Assembly: GCA_947372925.1 (NCBI GenBank)
Contig: CANBVQ010000008.1
Span: 1-46,892 of the forward strand
Source of the DNA: Acidimicrobiaceae bacterium
GTDB lineage: Bacteria > Actinomycetota > Acidimicrobiia > Acidimicrobiales > RAAP-2
Direction: 5' to 3'
DNA length: 46,892 nt
Made by a program: the position numbers and the translations under genes. The notes below the pieces were generated by a model. It was not told the origin of the DNA. It worked only from the letters and a program-made list of their open reading frames with translations, and did not search any database. Shown here piece after piece: positions 2,700 through 26,224 of this stretch (within the stretch, counting starts at the first letter, position 1; every line of letters begins with the position of its first letter).

Positions 2700-4375
2700 T
2701 GACTACTACTGCTCACGAAATCCAGGCCGAAGCACACGACCATGGTCACGGCCACGCCGAGCACCACGGTCCTCGTGGAATTCTGAACTGGCTGACCACG
2801 ACCGACCACAAGATCATTGGTCTTTCTTACACCATCACGTCGGTCATCATGCTGGTGATCGGTGGTGCGCTGGCCGAGGTCATCCGTGGCCAGCTCGCTA
2901 ATCCCGATGGCCACCTAGTCACCATGGCTCAGTACAACCAGCTGTTCACGATGCACGGCTCGATCATGATTTATCTGTTCGCCGGTCCCTTTGCATTCGG
3001 AGCCTTGGCCAACATCATCGTGCCGATTCAAATCGGTGCTCCCGACATGGCCTTCCCTCGACTGAACGCACTGTCGTACTGGCTCTACCTCACGGGTGCC
3101 ATCACGATGTTGCTCGGCTTCTTCGTCACCGGTGGTGCCGCGAACTTTGGCTGGGTCGGATACGCCCCACTCTCTGACGCGATCTACTCCCCCGGAGCCG
3201 GCGCCGACCTGTGGATCGGTGGCTTGATGCTGACCGGTTTCTCGGCCATCTTCACTGGTGTCAACATCTGCGCCACGGTCTTCTATCTGCGCGCACCTGG
3301 CTTGACCCTGTTCCGTATGCCGATTTTCACTTGGAACCTCCTGGTCGTGTCGATCCTCATCCTGCTGGCATTCCCAGTTCTGACCGCTGGACTAGTAATG
3401 CTCTACAGCGACCGCCACCTGGGCACCCACATCTACACCGTGGTGGGTGGAGGTTCGCCGGTCCTCTGGCAGCACATCTTCTGGTTCTGGGGACACCCCG
3501 AGGTGTACATCTTGGCCCTGCCATTCTTTGGAATGGTTACCGAGATCATCCCGGTCTTCTCTAAGAAGCCCGTCTTTGGTTACAAGGGCATGGTCTTTGC
3601 CACACTGACCATCGCCGCTCTGTCTTTGGGAGTATGGGCCCACCACATGTTCACCACTGGTGTCGTGCTGCTGCCGTTCTTCTCCATCATGAGTCTCTTG
3701 ATTGCCGTGCCAACGGGTATCAAGATCTTCAACTGGATTGGTTCAATGTGGCGAGGTCAGATTTGGTTCTCCGCCGCCATGCTCTTCTCGATTGGGTTCG
3801 TAGTTACGTTCCTCATCGGTGGTTTGACCGGTATCTACCTGGCGAGCCCACCGCTGGACTTCTTCACCCACGACACCTACTTCATCGTCGCCCACTTCCA
3901 CTCGGTGGTTATGGCGCTCGTGATTGGTGGAATGGCTGGCCTCTACTACTGGGGCCCGAAGATCACCGGCTACATGCTCAATGAGCGCATTGGTAAGGCC
4001 CAGTTCTGGTTGCTCTTTATCGGAACCCAGGTCTTCACGATTCCTCAGTACATCCTGGGTCTCCAGGGCATGCCCCGCCGCATGGCTATCTACCCCAACG
4101 ATCCACAGTGGCAGAACTTGAACACGTGGAGCTCCGTCGGCGCCATCATGATCGGTATCTCGACGCTGCTGTTCGTTATCAACATTGTCGCCAGCTGGAA
4201 GAAGCACCCCGCTGGTGACAACCCGTGGGACGGCCACACACTGGAGTGGTTCACCACCTCGCCACCACCGCACCACAACTTCTTCCGTCTCCCCCAGATT
4301 CGCTCCGAGCGACCTACGTGGGACCACAACCACCCCGACGCCAAGGCTTTGGCTCACGGAAAGGACGCCCACTAA
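2699..4375 (+). CDS. ctaD: Cytochrome c oxidase subunit I (aa3 type)
   Basis: This 558-residue, roughly twelve-helix protein holds haem a and the haem a3-CuB site where O2 is reduced. Low-spin haem ligands are His86 and His401, haem a3 binds His399, and CuB binds His266, His315 and His316; Tyr270 of HPEVY is the cross-linked tyrosine. Proton-path residues are intact: Asp116 and Asn123 (GAPDMAFPRLN) and Glu268 for the D path, Lys342 (PTGIK) for the K path. This makes it an A-family proton pump. The N-terminus is His-rich (HDHGHGHAEHH), a possible copper-loading stretch. It overlaps ctaC and ctaF by one base each (TAATG). Subunit III lies in another operon at 11619-12215. Confidence 0.98.
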   Translation: MTTTAHEIQAEAHDHGHGHAEHHGPRGILNWLTTTDHKIIGLSYTITSVIMLVIGGALAEVIRGQLANPDGHLVTMAQYNQLFTMHGSIMIYLFAGPFAFGALANIIVPIQIGAPDMAFPRLNALSYWLYLTGAITMLLGFFVTGGAANFGWVGYAPLSDAIYSPGAGADLWIGGLMLTGFSAIFTGVNICATVFYLRAPGLTLFRMPIFTWNLLVVSILILLAFPVLTAGLVMLYSDRHLGTHIYTVVGGGSPVLWQHIFWFWGHPEVYILALPFFGMVTEIIPVFSKKPVFGYKGMVFATLTIAALSLGVWAHHMFTTGVVLLPFFSIMSLLIAVPTGIKIFNWIGSMWRGQIWFSAAMLFSIGFVVTFLIGGLTGIYLASPPLDFFTHDTYFIVAHFHSVVMALVIGGMAGLYYWGPKITGYMLNERIGKAQFWLLFIGTQVFTIPQYILGLQGMPRRMAIYPNDPQWQNLNTWSSVGAIMIGISTLLFVINIVASWKKHPAGDNPWDGHTLEWFTTSPPPHHNFFRLPQIRSERPTWDHNHPDAKALAHGKDAH

Positions 4376-4767
4376 TGCGCGTTGAAGCAAAGATTCTTCT
4401 CTGGCTCGGCCTCTTCTTCGGCATCATGTGTGCCGTGTACTGGACATGGAGCCTGGAAAACGCCGGCGGCGTCATGATGTTCTTCGGTACGGGCCTCTGC
4501 CTGCTGCCAGGTAGCTACTACTACTGGTGGAGTCGTCGCATGGGCCCTCGCGCCGAGGACGACCCCAATGCCACGCAGGAGTCCGGCGCGGGCTACATCG
4601 ACGCCTTCCCTGGTTCGAGCATCTTCCCCTTCACCTTGGGTATGGGTGCATTCTGCATCGTGCTCGCCATGGTGTTTGGCTCGTGGATGCTGGTTCCCGG
4701 TTTGGCTCTCGTCATCTGGGCCGCCCTAGGCGGCATCGCCGAAGGTCGTCGAGGCGGCACTCGCTGA
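4375..4767 (+). CDS. ctaF: Actinobacterial cytochrome c oxidase subunit IV
   Basis: The 130-residue protein matches the actinobacterial oxidase polypeptide 4: two helices at the N-terminus (about 6-26 and 33-49), a polar loop with PGSYYYWWSRRMGPRAEDD, and two helices in the second half (about 80-97 and 101-119). This small subunit packs on subunits I and III of the actinobacterial aa3 oxidase. It starts at ATG 4375, overlapping the ctaD stop by one base; an in-frame extension upstream lies inside ctaD and is rejected. It closes the ctaCDF unit and is followed by a strong terminator. Confidence 0.93.
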   Translation: MRVEAKILLWLGLFFGIMCAVYWTWSLENAGGVMMFFGTGLCLLPGSYYYWWSRRMGPRAEDDPNATQESGAGYIDAFPGSSIFPFTLGMGAFCIVLAMVFGSWMLVPGLALVIWAALGGIAEGRRGGTR

Positions 4768-4782
4768 TTTTTGAATCTTCTT

Positions 4783-4816
4783 AAAACCCGCGGGGAAACC
4801 GGCGGGTTTTTTGTTT
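4783..4816 (+). terminator. Intrinsic terminator of ctaCDF
   Basis: AAAACCCGC pairs with GCGGGTTTT around a 10-base loop, directly followed by a run of Ts. It begins 16 bases after the ctaF stop. This is the only textbook rho-independent terminator I found in the window. Confidence 0.88.
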
Positions 4817-4887
4817 CCGTCCCAATCATGTTCGTTACTCGGAAGAATTCCTGGGCGGTCTCATTCTTGCGGTGATTAACTGGTGCC

Positions 4888-5448
4888 ATGGAAAGGCGAA
4901 ATTCGACCAGTGTTCGACGCCGATTGACCTTCGCCAAGGTCTACCGATTTTTCGGCTTTGCAGTCGTGGCCTTTGGCGTTATGGGCATTGTGGGCGCCGT
5001 CAGCGACCAGAGCCACCCCTCTGACACCGTGGGGGTCGTCATTACCAGTTTGGTTTTTGTCACCATTGGCATCGCGCTTGTGATTCGAGGAAGCCGAGCC
5101 CGATCTCGGTTGACTCAACTTCTACCAGACGCTTCTGGGGCGAATATCAAGAAATCGGATACGCCAGGGACGGCATCGTGGCGGCTCCGCACATTGCTCC
5201 GCTGGGCTCTACTCACTCCCGGGGGAGCCATCGCGACGCTCGTGGCAATAGTGGCGTCTATCAAGATTCCCGCCGCCCACTCCGCGCCAATCATCCTCTA
5301 TAGCGCCCATGCCGCCCGCTCGGTATTCGCTCAAGAGGCGATTGCTCAGCGGGATCAAGCCGATGTTCTTTCTCCCGACGAGAAGTTGAAAATGTGCCTG
5401 GCGAGTGGCGAGAGTGAAGCATCGGGCCTTGGCAGCCAGCCGACTTAG
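4888..5448 (+). CDS. Unknown membrane protein
   Basis: I do not recognise a family for this 186-residue protein. It has a basic N-terminus (MERRNSTSVRRR), two hydrophobic segments near residues 21-39 and 48-66, and a third around 105-125, then a polar tail of about 60 residues that is probably soluble. No catalytic motif stands out. The ATG at 4888 has no good ribosome site. It stands alone after the ctaF terminator, and its stop overlaps that of the convergent next gene in TTAG. Codon use is less biased than in the cta genes, which fits a weakly expressed or lineage-specific gene. Confidence 0.55.
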   Translation: MERRNSTSVRRRLTFAKVYRFFGFAVVAFGVMGIVGAVSDQSHPSDTVGVVITSLVFVTIGIALVIRGSRARSRLTQLLPDASGANIKKSDTPGTASWRLRTLLRWALLTPGGAIATLVAIVASIKIPAAHSAPIILYSAHAARSVFAQEAIAQRDQADVLSPDEKLKMCLASGESEASGLGSQPT

Positions 5449-5948
5449 GGCTGGTGTTGTAGGCGCTCACGCATAAGTGCCTCAAGAGTCATGTTGACTC
5501 TCGCAATTCGTGCCTTTCGTAGCATCCACAAATCGAGAGCGACCTGTACCCTCGAACCGTCGCTCATAATAAATCGGAGGTCGCCACGCCGAATCAGGGA
5601 GAGTTCGGAAATATTTTTGAGACTCCAGAAGAGATGGAGACCCTCGGAATGAAGCCAAATAATTCGTTGATTCGTGACGACCAAACCGAAGCTCACGCGA
5701 CCCCCAACAGTAACTCTGCCCCCTGAAGTGTCGCGAAGTCGAATGTAGGCACCGCCTGGAATTGCTAAGACCTGCTCGTTTGGGCGAATTATTCCCCACA
5801 GTTCTTCGAGCCACCTGTTTCCTATGCCACCAAGCTCGCTAACAATCGAGATCGCAAACTCGTGAAATAAGTCGTCTGGGACAATCTTGGGGGTTTTCTG
5901 CCAGTTGACGAACATGGGTAGGGATATTAGTGCGATGGTCTTAAGCAT
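5445..5948 (-). CDS. PH-like domain protein, function unknown
   Basis: This 167-residue protein contains a segment, GLVVTNQRIIWLHSEG (about residues 88-103), that is typical of small bacterial pleckstrin-homology-like domains. There a strand leads into TN-x-R-(I/L) and an aromatic turn. Preceding text (IIRPNEQVLAIPGG, about 53-66) fits the first strand of such domains (x-P-x-E-x-V/I). No enzyme motif is visible. The first helix is moderately hydrophobic but short. No ribosome site is clear, so the start could be 5948 or the in-frame ATG at 5915. Its 3' end overlaps the gene at 4888-5448; its start is divergent from the zinc-ribbon gene at 6130, with a 181-base gap in which I see no gene. Confidence 0.6.
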   Translation of the reverse strand: MLKTIALISLPMFVNWQKTPKIVPDDLFHEFAISIVSELGGIGNRWLEELWGIIRPNEQVLAIPGGAYIRLRDTSGGRVTVGGRVSFGLVVTNQRIIWLHSEGLHLFWSLKNISELSLIRRGDLRFIMSDGSRVQVALDLWMLRKARIARVNMTLEALMRERLQHQP

Positions 5949-6129
5949 TCACTGAAGGACCCGAGCCCGACTGAACCCTCCATCGCGATAGTTGAAAGCC
6001 AACCGCAGCACTACACGTCTGCAATAAGAACGTGATCAGGTCTCGAGGGTGGAAGCAACGAGTCGGGTCGTCGCTGGTCATTAGCGTTCATGTCATACCC
6101 CCTTGCGAGATTGTCCTTGGAGGTAGGTC

Positions 6130-6831
6130 ATGTGCCAAATGGATTTCAGCGAACGATGCCCGTCGTGTCGCAGTCACGCCCTCGTGCTCTTTATGGACGA
6201 AACATTTTTTGGGCCTGACCACTACGAAGGCTGGGTGAGTCAGGACCGCAATGGCACCTGGATCTTTCATCGCACGCCCCGAGAAGGTATTCGCCAGTAT
6301 CGAGCGTCGCGGGGCGAACGAGCCCGGGGCAACTGGTTCATAATCCCGCCAACCCCTCGTCCTAATGGCGTGAACCTGGCGGCTGTCTGCCGCAGTTGTG
6401 GCTGTGAGGTGACGTTCATCGAGCCCGGCGGCTGGCGTCTTTACAACAATCGCACCTGGGCTGGGATGCTCATGGTCCGCAAGCCGCTGACCTCCAAAGA
6501 GGAATACTTCGAGGAAATCGACTACAACCACGAGGTCATCTTCTCCACTGAGCCCATGATCCGACTGGTACGCACCGCGACCAACAACGTGTGGTGGATC
6601 AACTGGGACGACCCCAACGGCGACTGGGTTGAGAGTCACAATTGGATTCCCGGAGCGCCCTACCGTTGGACTGAATATCGCGCCGGTATGGACTTCGTGG
6701 GACCCCAGCCGACACACTCGTTTTGGCGCACCCCGGACGGCCTAGCCCTTTTAGCAACCCACCAATTCCCGTCCCATCGAGCAACGTACCAACGACAACC
6801 AGGAGAGCACTATGAGTCAGTCAGAGTTTGA
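6130..6831 (+). CDS. Zinc-ribbon protein A of a tandem pair, function unknown
   Basis: The 233-residue protein has one CxxC pair near the N-terminus (CPSC, about residues 10-13) and a second near residue 87-92 (CRSCGC), a split zinc-ribbon arrangement. Between them lies an aromatic, arginine-rich region; the second half is rich in Trp and Asn (VWWINWDDPNGDW) and has no motif I know. There is no signal peptide or membrane helix, so it should be cytoplasmic. A strong GGAGGT site lies six bases before the ATG. The last 20 bases overlap the next gene, whose product shares the same layout of CPxC, D-x-x-G-x-W and CRxCG, so the two look like diverged copies. Nearest known families cannot be named from the sequence. 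Confidence 0.6.
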   Translation: MCQMDFSERCPSCRSHALVLFMDETFFGPDHYEGWVSQDRNGTWIFHRTPREGIRQYRASRGERARGNWFIIPPTPRPNGVNLAAVCRSCGCEVTFIEPGGWRLYNNRTWAGMLMVRKPLTSKEEYFEEIDYNHEVIFSTEPMIRLVRTATNNVWWINWDDPNGDWVESHNWIPGAPYRWTEYRAGMDFVGPQPTHSFWRTPDGLALLATHQFPSHRATYQRQPGEHYESVRV

Positions 6832-16632: not shown

Positions 16633-18050
16633 GTCGACGCTCCGTCGTCATTGTCGGCGGTGGTATCGCCGGCTTAGCCGCGGCGTGGGAAGCATCGGGA
16701 GGCAGTACGCCAAACCCCGATGTGTTTGTTGAAGTAATAGAGGCACTCCCCGCAACGGGAGGGGCACTTCGAACGACGGAGTTTGCGGGACGCACCATTG
16801 ACCTCGGCGCCGATGGCTTCTTGGCCACTCGGGGTGAGGCGACTGACTTCGTTCGAGCAGTAGGTCTCGGTGACCAGCTCCGCCCCATTGGCGCGAGCGG
16901 GGCCTGGATCTATCTCCGCGGCACTCTCGAGAAGATACCGACGGGCTTGGTACTCGGCGTGCCCACCCGGTGGGCACAGCTTCGAACGATGCGACAACTT
17001 TCACGTCGGGCAAAGATGGGGGCGCTCCGTGATCTTCTCGTGCCCCGACGACTTCGTCCCAAGGAAGAGTTCACTATCGGTGCAATTCTGCGTAGCAAAC
17101 TCGGCGACGCCCTCGTTGATGAACTCATTGAGCCGATGATTGGCGGTATTCAGGCCGGGCGGGTCGACGAACTCAGTGCCGCTGAGGTCTTTCCCGCGTT
17201 AGATGCCGCCGCCCGTAAAGGTGGTTCTCTTATGCGAGCTATTCGTCCGAAGCCCCCAACCACGCCTGCGGCGCCTACGCCAATTTTCTTTTCGCTCCAA
17301 GATGGAGTCGGCTCTCTGCCCCTCCAGCTGCGCCCAATTCTGCAGCAGCGGGGAGTCCTCTTTCGCACGGGCGACCCCGTTACAGCTATTCGCCTCACCA
17401 CCGATCAGGCCCACTCATTGAGCGTAGAAACTGCGACGTCCGTGACCCCGGCCGACGCCGTTGTTGTCGCCACACCACCACAAGTTGCCGGAGCCCTACT
17501 CGGTCAGCTTTCGGCCGACGTTCGCCAGTTGGAGTTTGTCAAGAGCGCTAGCAGCACCATGGTGACCTTCGCCGTTCCCCGAGAAGCGTGCCCGCTCCCT
17601 GAGAGCGGCACCGGTGTACTGGTACCGCTACAGACCGACTTTATTGCGGGTACCGATTCGCTCCTAACGACTGCCGTGACGTTTCTGGATCGGAAATGGG
17701 CCCATCTGCATGACCCCCAGCTCGCACTGGTGCGGGTGCACACGGGACGGATTGACGATGAACGGGCGATGGCTATGAGTGACGATGCCCTGGTGCATCG
17801 AATCCACGCCGAACTAGCGCAGCTCTTTGGAGCATGGCCCGAAGCCGTTGAGACGCGAGTGCAGCGATGGCCCCACGCGTTACCGCAATACTTCCACTCA
17901 CACCGGGCCATGGTGACGGGGGCGCGAGCCGCTCTAGTACCGCACGGAATATTTCTCGGAGGGATGGCCTATGACGGGGTGGGCGTACCCGCCAGTATCG
18001 GTTCGGGTCGACGGGCCGGAAGTGAAGCGTTAGCGCACGCTCAGAGGTAG
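16629..18050 (+). CDS. hemY: Coproporphyrinogen III/protoporphyrinogen oxidase, FAD-dependent
   Basis: The 473-residue flavoprotein begins with the FAD dinucleotide motif VIVGGGIAGLAAAWE (about 7-21) and ends with GGMAYDGVGVPASIGSGRR, the C-terminal FAD motif of the HemY/CgoX family. It oxidises the porphyrinogen to porphyrin using O2. In Gram-positive bacteria the natural substrate is coproporphyrinogen III, so CgoX is the better functional name; the final decarboxylase ChdC (HemQ) is not in this window. It overlaps hemH by four bases and, at its 3' end, the convergent HAD gene by ten. Confidence 0.93.
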   Translation: MSRRSVVIVGGGIAGLAAAWEASGGSTPNPDVFVEVIEALPATGGALRTTEFAGRTIDLGADGFLATRGEATDFVRAVGLGDQLRPIGASGAWIYLRGTLEKIPTGLVLGVPTRWAQLRTMRQLSRRAKMGALRDLLVPRRLRPKEEFTIGAILRSKLGDALVDELIEPMIGGIQAGRVDELSAAEVFPALDAAARKGGSLMRAIRPKPPTTPAAPTPIFFSLQDGVGSLPLQLRPILQQRGVLFRTGDPVTAIRLTTDQAHSLSVETATSVTPADAVVVATPPQVAGALLGQLSADVRQLEFVKSASSTMVTFAVPREACPLPESGTGVLVPLQTDFIAGTDSLLTTAVTFLDRKWAHLHDPQLALVRVHTGRIDDERAMAMSDDALVHRIHAELAQLFGAWPEAVETRVQRWPHALPQYFHSHRAMVTGARAALVPHGIFLGGMAYDGVGVPASIGSGRRAGSEALAHAQR

Positions 18051-18532
18051 TAACCCGAGTGGATGTAGATGCAGGGAACACCTTCGCGGACGTACATCGC
18101 GTGGTTCTTCGGATCGTCATCAAGCGCTAAGCGCAAATCAAAACCGGTTTCTCGAAGTTCGTGCACCACGCTTCGTTTGAAATAGTCAACGCCCGAGTAG
18201 TCACCGAACTCACGCATGATGAGAACATCCCAACGAAGGCCATACCGCTCTAACCAACCCAACGTGTGTGGAGCGACCCGACGGGGGCGGCCAGTGAGCA
18301 AGATCACAGTGAGATTTGAATCGAGAAGTTCTAGTAGTCGTTCAATTTCTTCGATGACCGGATCGTCGCCGCAGGCTTCAAAGAAACTGCGCCAGTCGCC
18401 GTAGTCGAGGTAATGCTGCCGACCGGCCGCATCGGCCAGTACGCCGTCAATGTCGAAAATAACGGCGGGGCCAGGGGTAATTTCGGCCGCTCGCCAATGC
18501 CAGTTTTCGGGAGAACCTTCGCGCATACTCAC
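18041..18532 (-). CDS. HAD-superfamily phosphatase, PNKP-like
   Basis: The 163-residue protein has the HAD phosphatase motifs: FDIDGVLAD (motif I, nucleophile and acid/base Asp, about 26-34), LLTGRP (motif II Thr, about 78-83), Lys119 as the motif III candidate, and LALDDDPKN (motif IV, about 134-142). Small HAD proteins of this form resemble the phosphatase domain of polynucleotide kinase-phosphatase or nucleotidases; no kinase domain is attached. The substrate is unknown. GTG at 18532 gives the longest frame; the ATG at 18526 is equally possible. It faces the large membrane protein gene across 55 bases and overlaps the hemY end by ten bases. Confidence 0.8.
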   Translation of the reverse strand: MSMREGSPENWHWRAAEITPGPAVIFDIDGVLADAAGRQHYLDYGDWRSFFEACGDDPVIEEIERLLELLDSNLTVILLTGRPRRVAPHTLGWLERYGLRWDVLIMREFGDYSGVDYFKRSVVHELRETGFDLRLALDDDPKNHAMYVREGVPCIYIHSGYYL

Positions 18533-18587: not shown

Positions 18588-21566
18588 GTGAGTTCCCTGT
18601 CGAATCAAGTAATTGCATTACCTCAGGGCCGACGTCTAACCGTCTATAGCGACCTGCAATTGAGCCCAGAAATGGCGCATGACTCGATTGCCATGAGTTC
18701 CATTGTCGAACAGTTAAACGAAATTGACGAAGCCACTGTCATTATCTTTGCGGGGTCAACGTTTGCATTCGGGCCCACGTCCAATCCCCAGCGCTTCGTA
18801 GCCGCATGCTGGCGCCGATTCCCAGCTTTTTACCAAGCACTTCAGCGGGTTGCCTCGCTCGAACAGTCACAGGTTATTTTTCTACCGGGAGCCACCGATG
18901 AAGAGCTCGGCATTGACGCGCCAACGCAGGCCGCCCTGATCAGCATGGGCTTTGCCGTGGCCGCTTCGGTATCCGTCGACGTAATGACGTGGCGCGGAAG
19001 TCGACGCTTGGAAGTAGTGGCCGGAGTAACCACTCGCGATACTTCACGCGTCGACGAACGCGAACGAAACGATGCTCAGCGTCTCGACGACACCCAGTCG
19101 CTAACGAGATTTGTGCAGTCACGCTTGATGTACCGAACCTTCAGTGGCTGGGCCTGGGCCCCACTGTGGATTTTCGCTTTCTTGATGTTGAGTTCGTTCG
19201 TTATCGGCTTGAACGATCTCTTCGGCAGTCACGGCTCGCAACTCTTGGGCCAGACGCCACACTTCACCACGTGGGGTTGGCTTTCAGCCTCCCTCTTTGC
19301 CGTGGCTGCCATCGAGGCCGTATTGGTAGTCATCGCGAGCACTATTGCTCGACGGAGATTTTTCCATCGAGACGGACCACAGTTCACTTCAAGCGAACCG
19401 TTGGGCGACGTACTCATTGGAACTAAAGACGCGCTCACGTTAGCGAGCAGCATTGTGGCTGCAGGCGGCGTAGGCCTGATTGTCGGGGGCTGCGCCCGAC
19501 CGGCATTGGCCTACCTCGACCAGGGCGTCTGTGCGGCACCCGGGCCATCAGGTCGAGTCTTTGTCGAGCGCCACGGACGATTCGGGCTTCCGCCAATTTT
19601 CCAGCCAGTGGCACGAACGAGCTACGTCGAAGTAGAGGCTGGTGGAACTGTTCGGGTGCGGCTGGTTGCCGGTGGTCTACGCGAGCCCTCTTCAACTCGC
19701 CTAGAGCGTTGGCTCGCCGGGAAAACCACGTTGCCGGCACCACCAGAGCCACCAACTCTCATAGGTTCGTGGCCCGATGGTTCGCCCTGGCCACAGACGC
19801 CGATCTTCCAGCAAACCTTTCGTCGTGAGCTTCGACTGAAGCGCATCGTCAGTGGCGTCGTTCTCCTTACGGGTCTCGCCAATGTCGTGAGTGCCGTGGT
19901 GCCTCCCGCCCGAGGACGACTGGAATCACTGCTCAATGTCCTGCCACTCGGCGTCGCCCAATCGGCCGCAGCGGCCACCGCCCTCGCCGGCGTGGGAATG
20001 ATCATGATGGCTCGAGGCCTTCGTCGGGGTCAGCGCCGCGCGTGGATTGTGGCCGCCATTCTCTTTGCCGTCACCACTACGACCCATGTCGCGCACGGTG
20101 GCAACGGTCTCGGCACGCTGATAAACGCCATTGTCTTCATCCTGCTCATCACCGAGCGCCGCATTTTTCAGGGCGCGACCGATCGAGGCTCCTTTAGCAG
20201 TGCACTTCCCAAGCTGCTCAGTATTCCCGCAGTGGCCACTGCGAGCGCCATGCTCGTTGTCATCGTCACGTCACGAATTCCATTCGGTCGTGAGTGGTGG
20301 CACATCGCTCAGGCCTGCGTGGAACGCCTCATAGGTATCACCCGCCTGCCACTCCCGGATCGAGCGGGCGACTTCCTTTCGCCGTCACTGTTTGCGACGG
20401 GCATTGTGATCATCATGGGCAGCCTCTACTTGTTGACGCGACCCGTCGTGGATCGCCGCCTCTCCAACCACGGTTCTTCGGCCGAGCGTCGCTTGGCCGA
20501 ACTGCGTGCCCGAGACATCGTTCGACGGCATGGTCGAGGCACCCTTGACTACTTCGCACTCCGTGATGACAAACAGTTCTTCTTTTTCCGCGACTCGGTG
20601 GTTGCCTACGCCGTCTACGGCGGCGTAGCGCTCATCTCTCCGGACCCCATCGGCCCCGAACCAGAGCGCGTCGAAGTCTTTGCCGCTTTTCGCCGATTCG
20701 CCGAGCAGCGCGGCTGGACCCTCGCCATCATTGGTGCGAGTCAACAATGGCTGCCGGTCTATCAGGGCGCCGGCCTCCATCACATCTACGTGGGTGACGA
20801 AGGGGTTGTGAACTGTCAGACCTTCACGCTGGAGGGCGGCAAAATGAAGGGGCTGCGCCAGGCCTGTACTCGATTGGCCCGTAACGGCTACTCCGTCGAG
20901 TTTGTGGACCCCTCCACTATCGATCCGACCCGCGTGCGTGGAATCATGGAATTGATTGCCAAACTCCGTCGCGGGGAGGACGAGCGGGGCTTTTCGATGA
21001 TGCTCGGTCGACTCTTTAATCCCCGCGACAAAGGTCTCCTGCTGACGATTGTGAACGGTCCAGATGGCACTCCCGCGGCCGTCTGCCAGTTTGTGCCCTC
21101 TCCAGCTATCAATGGTTACTCTCTCGACCTCATGCGTCGCGATCCGGGCGAACACCCCAACGGGCTGATCGACTTTGCCCTCTGCTCCACGATCGAACAC
21201 CTACGCCAACAGGGTGGGCAGGGACTGAGCTTGAACTTCGCCGCCTTTCGAAGCGTGCTCGATGGTGAGAAGGGTGACGGTACGTTTACCAAAGTTGAGC
21301 GGTGGGCCCTAAAGCGACTTTCGGGCATTCTGCCCATTGAGACTCTCTGGACCTTTAATGCCAAGTATCAGCCCGACTGGCTCCCCCGCTACCTGGTCTA
21401 TCCCGCCTTTGAATCGCTAGTGCCTGTCGTGGCTGCGCTCTTGCGCGCCGAGAGTTTGACAGAGATTCCCATCATCGGACGACTGCTCGCCAACGACCCG
21501 TCCAACCGACCCAGCACCGTTATTCCCGAAGAAATCTTGGCGGCTGCGAGCGAGGATGCTACGTAA
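18588..21566 (+). CDS. Degenerate metallophosphatase fused to MprF/LysX-type synthase
   Basis: This 992-residue protein has two parts. Residues about 14-150 follow the calcineurin-like metallophosphatase plan, but the metal ligands are lost: SDLQ (21-24) where SDxH is expected, AGST for GD, GATD (101-104) for GNHD. Membrane helices start near 188, with a beta-rich insert, and more helices lie around 430-610. Residues about 640-950 match the DUF2156 domain of MprF and mycobacterial LysX (LRDDKQFFFF, GGVALISPDPIG, LEGGKMKGLRQ, GYSLDLMRRD), which transfers lysine or another amino acid from tRNA to phosphatidylglycerol at the membrane. I chose GTG 18588 because upstream codons overlap the divergent HAD gene and add no domain; the ribosome site there is poor. 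The 3' end overlaps the SGNH gene by eight bases. Confidence 0.82.
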   Translation: MSSLSNQVIALPQGRRLTVYSDLQLSPEMAHDSIAMSSIVEQLNEIDEATVIIFAGSTFAFGPTSNPQRFVAACWRRFPAFYQALQRVASLEQSQVIFLPGATDEELGIDAPTQAALISMGFAVAASVSVDVMTWRGSRRLEVVAGVTTRDTSRVDERERNDAQRLDDTQSLTRFVQSRLMYRTFSGWAWAPLWIFAFLMLSSFVIGLNDLFGSHGSQLLGQTPHFTTWGWLSASLFAVAAIEAVLVVIASTIARRRFFHRDGPQFTSSEPLGDVLIGTKDALTLASSIVAAGGVGLIVGGCARPALAYLDQGVCAAPGPSGRVFVERHGRFGLPPIFQPVARTSYVEVEAGGTVRVRLVAGGLREPSSTRLERWLAGKTTLPAPPEPPTLIGSWPDGSPWPQTPIFQQTFRRELRLKRIVSGVVLLTGLANVVSAVVPPARGRLESLLNVLPLGVAQSAAAATALAGVGMIMMARGLRRGQRRAWIVAAILFAVTTTTHVAHGGNGLGTLINAIVFILLITERRIFQGATDRGSFSSALPKLLSIPAVATASAMLVVIVTSRIPFGREWWHIAQACVERLIGITRLPLPDRAGDFLSPSLFATGIVIIMGSLYLLTRPVVDRRLSNHGSSAERRLAELRARDIVRRHGRGTLDYFALRDDKQFFFFRDSVVAYAVYGGVALISPDPIGPEPERVEVFAAFRRFAEQRGWTLAIIGASQQWLPVYQGAGLHHIYVGDEGVVNCQTFTLEGGKMKGLRQACTRLARNGYSVEFVDPSTIDPTRVRGIMELIAKLRRGEDERGFSMMLGRLFNPRDKGLLLTIVNGPDGTPAAVCQFVPSPAINGYSLDLMRRDPGEHPNGLIDFALCSTIEHLRQQGGQGLSLNFAAFRSVLDGEKGDGTFTKVERWALKRLSGILPIETLWTFNAKYQPDWLPRYLVYPAFESLVPVVAALLRAESLTEIPIIGRLLANDPSNRPSTVIPEEILAAASEDAT

Positions 21567-22563
21567 GTTTCGGCGAGATCAGGGGCACTAACGCTCGTGA
21601 GATGTACGTCATATACGAAGCCAACGCGTGGTAGCGATCGCTATACACGAGTTGCTTGCCAACGACCGAAACGCAGGTCGTGGGGGAACAAAAGAGATTA
21701 GATACATCAACAATCGGCAAGTGCTGATTACGCGCAGCTTGCCACAACCCATCACTGACGTCATTAACGAGAGCGTCACCTGTCCTTGACGCAAAGCAGT
21801 TGGAGATCGAGGTGGGATTCGCACTCATGCAAGAGTTGGTGTCGGCTCCGGTACCCGACATACGTAGCCATGGAATATTCGAGAGCAAGATAATTTTTGA
21901 CTTGGACGACTTGAGCAGGGCGGCGGCCGTCTTGACACCGGTCGCTAGCTCCTGAGCCGATGGGTGGTGCGTAGCCGACATAAAGCCAGAGACTCCTGTG
22001 AGAACGACGTACGTCGGATGCGAATCATTGATGTACTTGCGCACCGCAGTACGCCACGAGATGCAATCAGGGTAGGCGGCACCACTGGTTTGCGTCACGA
22101 CGTACCCCCATGGCGGACAGCCGGGCTTCGAAAAAGCCACGACACGAAGGTTCAGCAAAATACCGAGTTCATGGAAGGCCGGGGTCCACATATTTGCCTG
22201 TGAGTCGCCGAAGAGGACGAGGGTTCTCTTGGCTGTCGGTTGGCCAAAGAGGCACGTCACTCCGGGATTAGCCGGGAGGGTGGACTGGCCGGTCTTGGCA
22301 TCGCAGTGGGTCGTTCGCGACTTCGGGAGACCGACATAAAAACCGGAGTACTTCGAGGCGACATTAGCCAACATTGTTTTCGCTTCGGCCGGAAGCTGAG
22401 TGACCGTACTGGACTGCTGGAGCTGAGTCGCGAGTTGCGCCAATGTTGGTCGCGTGTCGGCGGTTACGGCACCGGCGGTGAGTGGAGCGAACGCCGTTAC
22501 GAGCGCACATCCGGTGAGAAGAACAGCGATCTTGCTGCGTACTGCCGATTTCGTAAGCCGCAT
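21559..22563 (-). CDS. Secreted SGNH-fold protein (hydrolase or acyltransferase-like)
   Basis: The 334-residue protein has a signal peptide (about 1-35, ending near TAGAVTA) and the SGNH pattern: GDSQ at 119-122 (nucleophile block, Ser121), and DRYH near residue 311, where the catalytic Asp and His of block V sit in the DxxH form. Eight or so cysteines suggest disulfides outside the cell. The form resembles the C-terminal SGNH domain of OafA-type acyltransferases, which handle O-acetyl groups on surface glycans; here it stands alone. I start at ATG 22563: it gives a clean signal peptide and has AAGGA ten bases upstream; the longer frame to 22686 runs into the opposite gene. Substrate unknown. 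Confidence 0.8.
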   Translation of the reverse strand: MRLTKSAVRSKIAVLLTGCALVTAFAPLTAGAVTADTRPTLAQLATQLQQSSTVTQLPAEAKTMLANVASKYSGFYVGLPKSRTTHCDAKTGQSTLPANPGVTCLFGQPTAKRTLVLFGDSQANMWTPAFHELGILLNLRVVAFSKPGCPPWGYVVTQTSGAAYPDCISWRTAVRKYINDSHPTYVVLTGVSGFMSATHHPSAQELATGVKTAAALLKSSKSKIILLSNIPWLRMSGTGADTNSCMSANPTSISNCFASRTGDALVNDVSDGLWQAARNQHLPIVDVSNLFCSPTTCVSVVGKQLVYSDRYHALASYMTYISRALVPLISPKLT

Positions 22564-22665
22564 TAACTGCCAATCCTTAGGTTGCGTAGGCATCAACTTA
22601 CACGGCGAAAGAAGAATTTTCGACGCGCCAGCCAAGTGGCAGAATCTCTCCGCAGGGAACGTGAC

Positions 22666-22673
22666 AGGAAAGG
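22666..22673 (+). promoter_or_regulatory. Ribosome site deciding the MFS gene start
   Basis: AGGAAAGG lies five bases upstream of GTG 22679 and supports that start over the in-frame ATG at 22694 and over the far-upstream ATG at 22454, which lies inside the divergent SGNH gene. Confidence 0.6.
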
Positions 22674-22678
22674 TGACC

Positions 22679-23920
22679 GTGGCCAAAAATCCAATGTCTT
22701 CAGTCTTGCGCTACCGCGAGGCGCGCTGGCTTCTCTTCGGTCAAAGCACTTCTCGACTTGGTGACGGTGTTTCGGCCGTCACGATCGTTCTGCTGATACT
22801 GGACCGCTGGCCCGGGGCGACACACCTCTCGCTCTATTCGGCCGTAGCGACTCTCGCTCTCGTCGTCTTTCTCCTCTTCGGCGGTGCCGTCGTCGACCGC
22901 TTTTCACGACGAACCATCCTGCTGATATCAGACCTTTCGCGAGCGGTCATTATGGGCACTGTGGCCCTCTTGCTCGCCACCGATCGCCTGACCTTCTTAG
23001 AACTACTGCTGAGCGCCTTCCTCTTTGGCATTCTCGACGCGGTCTTCATGCCCGCGGCCACCGCACTAATTCCCGAGATTGTTCCCGAGGAGGCACTGAA
23101 CTCGGTGAATGCTGCCAGCGCAGTGTCTCGGAGTCTCTTTGGGGGCATGCTGGGTCCGGCTCTCGGTGGAATTCTTTCGGCGTGGAGCATTCCGGGGGCT
23201 CTGGCTTTTGACGTTGGAACATTTCTCATTAGCGCCGTCTCCATCTTGCTCATGAGACGAACGACGGCACCGGCAGCGCCGGCGGATGGTCACGAAAACA
23301 TGTTGAGGTCAATTGCTTCCGGACTTCGATACACCTATCAGACCAAGTGGCTGTTTTGGACGTTGATGGGCGCGGGTTTAACGAACGCCCTACTTTTCGT
23401 CCCCCAGGGAACGTTGATGCCGCTCTTCTTAAAGGACGAGTTTCACGCCAATCGACAACTGATTGGCCTGAGCTTTGCGATTAGCGGTGTGGGCTGGCTG
23501 GTTGGTTCATTGATCGTGGGATCGCTCACCACGCCTAAGCGCCGAGTCAGATGGCTCACCACCTCATGGTTACTGGGCAACATCGTGGTCGGATTTATCG
23601 CCATTGTGAATCACGCCTGGATGGCATTAACAATCGTCTTTCTCGTCGGACCACTCCTGTCCTACGGCAACGTGCTCTGGGAGTCCATGATGCAAACGGA
23701 AGTTCCCAAAGAACTGCTGGGTCGCATTACGTCAGTGGACTGGTTCATCTCGCTCGGTCTGACACCTATTGGCGTGATGGCCGCGGCAGCGCTCTCTACG
23801 CATCTCGGCATTCGGACCTACTTCTTGATCGCCACACTGGTGTGCGTGCCGTTTCAGATTGTTCTCTTGTTGTCCAAGCGAGTCAATGCCGTAGACGCAA
23901 CTCGAGTCGCTTCAAAATAG
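22679..23920 (+). CDS. Major facilitator superfamily transporter
   Basis: The 413-residue protein has about twelve hydrophobic helices in two halves joined by a loop near residue 200. The loop between helices 2 and 3 carries GGAVVDRFSRR, the MFS motif A, and the family looks like the drug/enterobactin-exporter type (GQSTSRLGDGVSAVT at the start, FMPAATALIPEIVP near helix 4). A proton-driven efflux role is likely; the cargo is not readable. It starts from GTG 22679, 115 bases from the divergent SGNH gene. Its last 38 bases overlap the convergent ATP-grasp gene. Confidence 0.88.
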   Translation: MAKNPMSSVLRYREARWLLFGQSTSRLGDGVSAVTIVLLILDRWPGATHLSLYSAVATLALVVFLLFGGAVVDRFSRRTILLISDLSRAVIMGTVALLLATDRLTFLELLLSAFLFGILDAVFMPAATALIPEIVPEEALNSVNAASAVSRSLFGGMLGPALGGILSAWSIPGALAFDVGTFLISAVSILLMRRTTAPAAPADGHENMLRSIASGLRYTYQTKWLFWTLMGAGLTNALLFVPQGTLMPLFLKDEFHANRQLIGLSFAISGVGWLVGSLIVGSLTTPKRRVRWLTTSWLLGNIVVGFIAIVNHAWMALTIVFLVGPLLSYGNVLWESMMQTEVPKELLGRITSVDWFISLGLTPIGVMAAAALSTHLGIRTYFLIATLVCVPFQIVLLLSKRVNAVDATRVASK

Positions 23921-24743
23921 CGTCAGCCAACTTCGCGGCGGCCTCGGGGTGGTAGGTCAAAAAGAGTGAGGGCTCGGTCAGTTCGAGCTCCATCACGGCC
24001 CAATCGTCATCGAGGCGACAGAGGTCGACTCGGGCGTAGAGCGCTGACGATGCGCCTCCCGCTTCCAACACCCTTCGAGCGAATTGCAGCGTTTCGGGAC
24101 TTGCCGTGGCCACCGACATCTGTTCGGCACGAAAGAGTTGACTGCGGTCGTTCTCGACCGCATTGAGCATCGCTCCCTTGCGCATGGCGTGGGAAAACTC
24201 ACCGTCCACAAAGACGAGAGCTAACTCACCCTCTTCATCAATTGACTCCACGTAGGGCTGGATAATTACATCTCGACCTGAGGCGTGCAGAGATCGGACG
24301 TGGGCGTGAGCGCGGGCGTGGTCCCCTGCTCCGTAGCGTTCGGCGTCCATACTGCCCGCCCCGACTGTGGGCTTTACCACGAAGTTGCCCGCGGGGAAGA
24401 TGGGGTCGATAGCTACGTCAGCAAAGGTCGAAGGAATTACGTTGATTCCGGCTAGTTGCAAGGACCGTAGGTAGTGCTTGTCGGTATTCCAGGTCACAAG
24501 GTCCAACGAGTTATAGAGCGTAGGAACGCTCGACGCCCATTCGAGAAATTCATCTCGGCGGGGTGCGTAATCCCACGTCGAACGGATGACCGTCGCATCA
24601 AATCGATCCCATTGGGCATTCGGGTCGTCCCAGGCCAACAGTTCATACGCAAGCCCGACGCTCGTTAATGCCTCTAGGAGCAGTGGTGTGTCGGGGTCGA
24701 CGTAGAGGTCCTCACACGTCGCGATTGCGACGCGACGACTCAC
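23883..24743 (-). CDS. ATP-grasp ligase-like protein coupled to nuoN
   Basis: The 286-residue protein has an ATP-grasp layout like RimK, glutathione synthetase or the DcsG-type ligases: STWDYAPRRDEF (about 55-66), NTDKHYL, the ATP-binding FVVKPTVGAGS (about 121-131), QPYVESIDEEGELALVFVDG (about 165-184) and the metal-binding ELELTEPSLF near 255-265. Such enzymes join a carboxylate to an amine with ATP; the substrates are unknown. The GTG at 24743 overlaps the nuoN stop in GTGA, so it is probably translated as the last gene of the nuo operon. The frame extends further upstream inside nuoN, but that part does not look like this family. Confidence 0.82.
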   Translation of the reverse strand: MSRRVAIATCEDLYVDPDTPLLLEALTSVGLAYELLAWDDPNAQWDRFDATVIRSTWDYAPRRDEFLEWASSVPTLYNSLDLVTWNTDKHYLRSLQLAGINVIPSTFADVAIDPIFPAGNFVVKPTVGAGSMDAERYGAGDHARAHAHVRSLHASGRDVIIQPYVESIDEEGELALVFVDGEFSHAMRKGAMLNAVENDRSQLFRAEQMSVATASPETLQFARRVLEAGGASSALYARVDLCRLDDDWAVMELELTEPSLFLTYHPEAAAKLADAILKRLELRLRH

Positions 24744-26224
24744 GGAAGGAGGAGGTAGGCGTGGTGCGCCAAGTTGGCAATAGGTCCAGGCCACACACCA
24801 AAGAGGATGGCCGAAACACTGCCGATGGCTATTACCGACCCGGTGAGGCGGGGAACGGCCACTCGGACTCCAGCACCCTCGTCGTCGCTGTAGAGCGAAA
24901 GCACCAGTCGAACGTAAAAGAATCCACCAATGGCTGCCGCCACCATGGCAATCACGGCCAGCCAGGAGCCACCAGCGTCCACGGCAGAGGTAATCACGGC
25001 GAACTTGGCGAAGAACCCAGTGGTGAACGGCGCACCGGCCTGTGACAGCAGCAGCACGGCGAGCGCCGCTCCGAGTAGGGGCTGACGACGAGCTAGGCCA
25101 CGGTAGTGATCAAGGTCGTGACTGGTTTCACCCTCTCCCCCAACGAGCGTCACCACCGCAAAGGTGGCGATCACGACCGGGAGATACGTCACGACGTAGT
25201 ACAGAGTGCCGGCGACACCAGAAGGTGAGGCTGACCAAAGGCCCAGCAACATGAAGCCGGCCTGCGATATCGAAGAGTAGGCGAGAAGACGCTTGATGTT
25301 GCGCTGCACCAGAGCCACTGCGGCACCGACCAACGTCGAGAGAACGACGAGACCCCACACCAGTGGACGCCACGACTCTGACTGGGTCGTGAGTGCTCCA
25401 AAAATCACGCGCAAGACGGCGGCAAATGCACCGACCTTCACGATGGACGCCATGTAACCCGTAACGGGTGACGGAGCTCCCTCGTAAACGTCTGGCGACC
25501 AGACGTGGAACGGAACCGCAGCCACCTTGAAGGCAAAGCCGACCAGCATGAGTCCGAGGCCCGCAACCAGCACACCAGGCTGGAGGATGAAGTTGTGCGC
25601 GAGGAAGTAAGCGATTGACGACAAGTTCGTCGAACCGGCGCCGCCGTAGGTCAGCGCCACGCCGTAGATGAAAATTGCTGACGCAAAGCCACCCAGCAGG
25701 AAGTACTTCAAGGCTGCTTCGGCCGAACCGGAGCGGTGGCGGTCAAAGGCGACCAACACGTAGAGCCCAATGGACAGGATTTCGAGTCCGAGGAAGATCA
25801 CGATGAGATCGTTGGCTTGCGCCATCATCATCGCGCCGGAGGCCGAGGCCAAAACCAGGATGTGAAATTCGGCACCCACAACGTGAGCACGATGCGCCCA
25901 GTCGTGTGCGACCAGCGCGGTGAGCCCGACGCCGAGAGCGATGGCGGCCGAGGCCAGAACTCCGAAGCCATCGAGCGCAATGGCGTGAGCCAGCGTTGTC
26001 GTCGAACCATGGATCGACACATCACGCCACTGGAAGAACGAAAGTGCGAATGCACTTACAGCCGTCACGACCGTCACGCTGGTGGCGACTACGGCCGAAA
26101 CGCGAGCGCGTGTCATGGCCGTTACGAACATCAAGATCAGTGAGCCGCCCAGGAGGACCAATATCGGCGCAATGGCCAGATAGTGGACGGAGGGCATCGC
26201 TAGTTGTGCCACTTTCGCGATCAT
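24740..26224 (-). CDS. nuoN: NADH-quinone oxidoreductase subunit N
   Basis: The 494-residue protein is an antiporter-like membrane subunit of complex I with about fourteen helices. A lysine and glutamate in the core helices carry protons; the segment DLIVIFLGLEILSIGLYVLV contains the conserved glutamate of helix 5, and VQRNIKRLLAYSSISQAGF is the characteristic central stretch. I start at ATG 26224, which overlaps the nuoM stop in ATGA; a longer frame to 26350 is inside nuoM. It sits at the far end of the proton-pumping arm with NuoM and NuoL. Confidence 0.95.
   Translation of the reverse strand: MIAKVAQLAMPSVHYLAIAPILVLLGGSLILMFVTAMTRARVSAVVATSVTVVTAVSAFALSFFQWRDVSIHGSTTTLAHAIALDGFGVLASAAIALGVGLTALVAHDWAHRAHVVGAEFHILVLASASGAMMMAQANDLIVIFLGLEILSIGLYVLVAFDRHRSGSAEAALKYFLLGGFASAIFIYGVALTYGGAGSTNLSSIAYFLAHNFILQPGVLVAGLGLMLVGFAFKVAAVPFHVWSPDVYEGAPSPVTGYMASIVKVGAFAAVLRVIFGALTTQSESWRPLVWGLVVLSTLVGAAVALVQRNIKRLLAYSSISQAGFMLLGLWSASPSGVAGTLYYVVTYLPVVIATFAVVTLVGGEGETSHDLDHYRGLARRQPLLGAALAVLLLSQAGAPFTTGFFAKFAVITSAVDAGGSWLAVIAMVAAAIGGFFYVRLVLSLYSDDEGAGVRVAVPRLTGSVIAIGSVSAILFGVWPGPIANLAHHAYLLLP

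Follow-up and report, generated by a model that had tools for sequence, protein, structure and literature searches.

Enzymes of the MprF/LysX type determine the charge of the membrane and the degree of cationic-peptide resistance, and in MprF the front part of the protein is a flippase. In LysX of Mycobacterium and Corynebacterium (NF002821) six membrane helices are followed by a DUF2156 synthase domain, six being also the number of helices in M. tuberculosis LysX (PMC8974105), and the product of the actinobacterial enzyme is lysyl-diacylglycerol, with diacylglycerol as the acceptor (PMC10580965). LysX2 (Rv1619) has an unusual membrane part and an MprF-like domain that is extracytoplasmic, with no metallophosphoesterase (MPE) domain described (PMC8974105). 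In the literature searched, no description of an MPE-DUF2156 fusion was found, and the two papers in which MprF and metallophosphatase are both named are genome papers on other subjects, judging from their titles and abstracts; the MprF-type classification of Smith et al. 2015 lies outside that scope and may list it.

Such a fusion is encoded in the window, a stretch of 46,892 nucleotides analysed here, from an Acidimicrobiaceae genome of 1.49 Mb and 96% completeness. The protein consists of an MPE-derived front domain, a membrane part of six helices and a DUF2156/LPG-synthase domain of the LysX/MprF family that is well preserved.

Layout of the fusion protein and its synthase

The reading frame is uninterrupted from a GTG at 18588 to a stop at 21566, and this start is preferred because beginning at an ATG further upstream (18450) would make the frame overlap with a divergent HAD gene. 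A full-length homologue with 95% identity is present at another locus, L031. The parts of the gene are as follows:

18588..21566, + strand: fusion gene for pseudo-MPE, membrane part and LPG synthase (992 aa)
18603..19145, + strand: degenerate MPE domain, N-terminal half, residues 6-186 (alignment with the intact L037, L086 and L098; structure model; HMM of stand-alone proteins only; dN/dS 0.081 against L031)
19146..19391, + strand: two-helix membrane hairpin that interrupts the MPE domain after HGH and before GHTH (helices at about 191-213 and 238-260 in the model; hydropathy)
19392..19799, + strand: degenerate MPE domain, C-terminal half, residues 269-404 (alignment; model strands at 296-395; dN/dS 0.031)
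19839..20432, + strand: six transmembrane helices of the LysX/MprF synthase part, residues about 418-615 (full-length model; hydropathy and charge; NCBIfam LysX match; Foldseek matches to MprF structures)
20517..21401, + strand: LPG_synthase_C/DUF2156 aminoacyl-lipid synthase domain, residues 644-938 (PF09924, E=1.3e-64; alignment to 4v34 and others; Foldseek TM-score 0.82 to 4v36)

The only Pfam match above cut-off in the protein is LPG_synthase_C (218.6 bits against a cut-off of 27.5), and no other PF09924 protein is encoded in the genome. Of the NCBIfam models, LysX (NF002821) matches residues 420-966 with E=6e-79, its 266 bits standing against a cut-off of 742, and MprF (NF033480) matches with E=4e-64, below its equivalog cut-off and over model positions 323-837 only; together the two cover residues 418-966. 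The synthase aligns end to end with the solved alanyl-PG and lysyl-PG synthases and keeps the blocks DK, DPIGP, K-LR, E-GFS, SLDLMR and PRYL that they share. It is probably an ordinary and active enzyme, as judged by its sequence, for which tRNA-dependent aminoacyl transfer to a lipid is predicted from those blocks, and since the motifs match known synthases of this kind, it may simply make aminoacyl-PG or aminoacyl-DAG of the usual sort.

The arrangement of six helices and a DUF2156 synthase is that of LysX, but the window protein has an MPE-derived domain added in front, and a lysyl-tRNA synthetase domain, sought in Pfam and NCBIfam, was not found, which sets it apart from bifunctional LysX. 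In the full-length model (pLDDT 84.7), Foldseek matches the synthase and its adjoining helices to the MprF structures of Firmicutes and Proteobacteria (7duw, 7f47, 9goe) over about 545 columns, with E down to 9e-25, and to isolated synthase domains at TM-scores up to 0.82. Unlike MprF, the protein has no N-terminal flippase helices, and in their place residues 1-404 form the pseudo-MPE with its single hairpin of two helices. The sequence-only reading had expected a full membrane region followed by a DUF2156 synthase; the synthase does follow, although the region is the six-helix one of LysX and not a full MprF flippase. In the model, and from the positive charge of the loops on the MPE and synthase sides of the helices, two in the MPE and six after it, both soluble domains are predicted to be cytosolic, with the helices placed directly before the synthase. 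This predicted location would distinguish the synthase from the extracytoplasmic MprF-like domain of LysX2.

A metallophosphoesterase domain without its metal ligands

Residues 1-400 have no convincing match in Pfam or NCBIfam. Their MPE ancestry is nevertheless shown by fold and profile homology. An HMM built from intact stand-alone MPEs alone, and thus a non-circular test, matches residues 1-404 with E=6.4e-14, and hhalign of the genus profile against the stand-alone profile gives 99.7% across 375 columns; with none of 500 shuffles reported by the HMM, chance resemblance to an MPE is ruled out. The AlphaFold2 model of residues 1-416 is confident (pLDDT 90, pTM 0.87) and shows the MPE fold. 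In a Foldseek search of the PDB with this model the top six matches are all LpxH (8qjz, E=2e-6, probability 1.00), followed by other proteins with the MPE fold, among them SbcD/Mre11, GpdQ and Vps29; when the intact domain was compared with PDB sequences, no meaningful match emerged. A phosphoesterase layout had been proposed for the first 150 residues, and the fold and homology bear this out, but the domain in fact extends over about 400 residues (about 6-404), its two halves parted by the hairpin insert at residues 187-262 or so.

LpxH, the UDP-2,3-diacylglucosamine pyrophosphatase, shares with the domain an MPE core with an insertion before GHTH. It is catalytic and carries a helical cap where the window domain has its membrane hairpin. 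The TM-scores to LpxH reach a modest 0.47-0.55 when scaled to LpxH length, which the hairpin insert would lead one to expect, and the identity is 12-14%. Vps29 is an MPE fold in a non-catalytic binding role; its context is unrelated to that of the window domain, and the comparison is one of principle only.

The loss of the catalytic residues becomes evident when the protein is aligned to a distant homologue, L037, which has the textbook motifs SDLH, AGD, GNHD, HGH and GHTH and scores above the cut-offs that Pfam sets for both PF00149 and PF12850. At these places the window protein reads SDLQ, AGST, GATD, AGV and GCAR. The first three had been noted from the sequence and are confirmed, and the last two are further losses. 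Site by site, all from the alignment:

18651..18659, + strand: SDLH site, D22 kept, H replaced by Q24 (D in all 33 genus rows; S at the His position in 25)
18756..18758, + strand: GD site, bridging Asp replaced by S57 (N in 26 of 33 genus rows)
18891..18899, + strand: GNHD site, N replaced by A102 and H by T103, D104 kept
19020..19022, + strand: HGH site, H replaced by A145 (Ala in 28 of 33 genus rows)
19488..19496, + strand: GHTH site, H replaced by G301 and H by A303 (G in 33 of 33 genus rows at 301)

Every metal-binding His and the bridging Asp are gone, and of the metal ligands only the first Asp survives, together with the non-ligand Asp of GNHD. The domain therefore has neither the ligand set of an enzyme-type MPE (D-x-H, GD, GNH, H and GHxH) nor a match to PF00149, and the catalytic motifs of LpxH, including any ligand His, are absent from it. 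The picture is that of a dead metallophosphatase domain joined to an MprF/LysX-type synthase, as had been read from the sequence. That the domain still cleaves phosphoesters through another metal site or a metal-free mechanism is very improbable. The retention of D22 and D104 in almost all members of the genus would fit such an activity, but the former ligand positions are all without His, another residue has taken the place of the bridging Asp, and a second conserved His/Asp/Cys cluster is not evident in the alignment. A search of the whole genome with PF00149 and PF12850 for a second, active MPE as a possible complement returned no match; both profiles are found in 14 of 14 control genomes, which makes this genome unusually poor in MPEs.

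Fusion and loss across the order

Of the 36 further genomes in the genus, 34 contain homologues of residues 1-404, which also occur in several more families of the order. In the order, 248 genomes were examined: the MPE domain is present in 73, PF09924 in 100 and both in 72, so that the MPE domain accompanies the synthase in 72 of the 100 sampled LPG-synthase genomes, and at nearly all loci examined the two domains share one frame, a few being split by contig ends. The same two-domain arrangement is common in the order. The lone genome of the order with the MPE domain and without PF09924 (G038) has a stand-alone intact MPE. In one genome (G013) the same fusion gene lies at two contig ends, L045 and L046, with slightly different sequences, probably through strain variation splitting the assembly.

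Homologues with intact ligands do exist. The sequence-only reading would have taken them as a sign of a local sequence error, but the loss is found throughout the genus and in most members of the order, by which a sequencing or assembly error is ruled out.

Ligand degeneration accompanies fusion. Among non-redundant ORFs, the six ligand sites are intact in 4 of 89 fused ORFs and in 26 of 27 ORFs without the synthase domain. Because the counts were not drawn independently of one another and the profile may be biased towards stand-alone proteins that are intact, the Fisher p (1e-20) is descriptive only. The exception among the synthase-less ORFs, L070/L087, is a fused gene interrupted by an ambiguous base, and one of the 26 intact ones, L088, stops at a contig end and might be part of a fusion. 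All nine motif residues are found in the fused L086 and L098 within the order and in L177 and L178 elsewhere in the phylum, and L085, also fused, has one motif residue changed; L086, L098 and L177 score for both PF00149 and PF09924.

In a tree of the synthase domain the intact fused forms fall in a single clade (support 99) among the degraded relatives L193, L101, L106, L072 and L179, and the large remainder of the tree, the genus of the window included, is wholly degraded. The simplest reading is that the fusion took place when the MPE was active, and that the large group then lost its ligands once, early on, and the other group on further occasions; the tree was made by a quick method and its root was not inferred, which leaves it to the intact stand-alone relatives and those outside the class to indicate the direction. 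Catalysis was probably lost after fusion, and more than once.

The stand-alone relatives are membrane-hairpin MPEs of Actinomycetota (L180, L181, L184-L191, L196 and others) that contain the same domain, homologous over about 375 columns, but are unfused, with ligands all intact where resolved and with LPG synthase absent from most of the genomes tested. L180-L195 represent a family of such intact proteins in other Actinomycetota, three of which, scanned against NCBIfam, received no curated name above cut-off. Outside the order, PF09924 is absent from six of the seven genomes with a stand-alone MPE that were tested, and the seventh (G439) has a separate one. Together with the stand-alone MPE of G038, this shows that the MPE's own reaction is independent of aminoacyl lipids. 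The neighbourhoods of the stand-alone MPEs, taken as a clue to the substrate, have no constant neighbour and no conserved operon tying the intact MPE to lipid synthesis.

These distributions bear on the idea of a two-step enzyme, in which the phosphatase would make the acceptor, turning phosphatidate into diacylglycerol or PG-phosphate into PG, and pass it to the synthase. Intact fused forms inside and outside the order are consistent with it, as is LpxH as the closest fold, and the diacylglycerol acceptor of LysX (PMC10580965) could come from a phosphatidate phosphatase. However, intact stand-alone homologues occur in genomes without LPG synthase, and a two-step reaction is impossible for the window protein itself, every ligand His being missing. 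The idea could apply to the intact fused forms, with the window protein as a descendant, and is on the whole unlikely.

Constraint on the dead domain, its possible role and its surroundings

The dead domain is under purifying selection, with a constraint weaker than that on the synthase. Between the window and L031 (dS 0.5-1.0), dN/dS is 0.081 and 0.031 for the two MPE halves, 0.064 for the hairpin, 0.036 for the membrane part and 0.018 for the synthase. Within the genus the identity is about 40% for the MPE domain and about 56% over the full length, the MPE part changing faster than the synthase. The segment that follows the former GHTH loop, RPALAFLDxGVCAxPGPSR...GRFGLPPxF, hardly varies in the genus, and D22, D104 and G301 are fixed or almost fixed. 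A further step of reduction is seen in a fused relative, L036 in G039 (4149-6698, + strand), the MPE part of which has neither the hairpin nor the middle of the domain.

Pseudogene decay is disfavoured by dN/dS and by the full-length open frames of the fusion in tens of genera across the order. The same evidence, with dN/dS values of 0.03-0.08 and a confidently predicted fold, makes it most improbable that the MPE part is functionless junk decaying after fusion and headed for loss, even though the ligands have been lost in many different ways, the part evolves faster than the synthase and the hairpin has gone from L036.

The preserved dead phosphatase instead suggests a part kept for binding or control. 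The ancestral MPE, anchored by its hairpin and nearest in fold to the lipid hydrolase LpxH, would have worked next to the synthase as a hydrolase of some phosphorylated membrane lipid, an ancestry that the lipid substrate of LpxH favours. Such an active membrane MPE would have been joined to a LysX-like synthase, tRNA-dependent and with phosphatidylglycerol or diacylglycerol as acceptor, and once joined, it may either have supplied the acceptor lipid or held it in place. The phosphatase chemistry would then have become dispensable, the dead domain being retained as a cytosolic module at the membrane surface. We infer, with a probability of roughly 0.45, that the dead pocket now serves either to bind the head group of a phospholipid or to dock on the synthase, and that it thereby presents the acceptor lipid or adjusts the activity.

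The main rival is that the dead MPE is a mere structural membrane anchor or folding scaffold that replaced the MprF flippase helices, with neither a ligand nor a sensing role. It is a tentative alternative, with which the variation of the ligand-site residues by lineage, beside a persisting fold and Gly/Pro framework, is consistent. The hairpin-less L036 and the faster evolution of the MPE part point the same way, and suggest, against a binding or docking module, that some of the domain may be a scaffold under weak demands; the lack of a conserved operon linking the intact stand-alone MPE with lipid synthesis also counts against the module. On the other hand, the near invariance of the stretch after GHTH and of D22, D104 and G301 goes beyond the apparent needs of an anchor, and in dN/dS the C-terminal half differs little from the membrane part.

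What stands is a class of LysX-like synthases with a dead MPE in the place of the flippase, common in one order, and this is a bigger finding than first noted, as a large share of that order carries a dead phosphatase in the MprF flippase position. In a wider and rather doubtful extension, the class would be widespread in actinobacteria, the fusion of an active membrane lipid phosphatase with a LysX-like synthase having served as a one-protein route from phosphorylated to aminoacylated lipid, in which the phosphatase died repeatedly in most lineages and became an allosteric or lipid-presenting pseudoenzyme controlling the synthase. Intact fusions, dead fusions and intact stand-alone relatives together offer a rare set of stages for a direct test of how an enzyme turns into a binding module, and they may show which phosphorylated lipid feeds aminoacyl-lipid synthesis.

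Upstream of the fusion lie a haem cluster (uroporphyrinogen decarboxylase, ferrochelatase and a hemY-like oxidase) and a divergent phosphatase gene:

18041..18532, − strand: HAD phosphatase of the PNKP-phosphatase type, divergent neighbour (conserved head-to-head with the fusion in relatives)

The head-to-head arrangement is seen at nearly all genus loci examined and also at L033 in another family, and a functional link is possible. Downstream, a gene without a Pfam match and nuo-like genes (putative names) follow, and the gene order is kept in the family; the conserved surroundings give no direct functional link for the fusion. The gene without a match (23883-24794, − strand; none at E 0.001) is kept beside the fusion across the family. 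Between it and the fusion, at 21559-23920, an SGNH-domain gene (− strand) and an MFS gene (+ strand) look like a recent insertion or replacement, because they are absent at the 95%-identical L031 locus; an MFS gene is also found at this position in L050.
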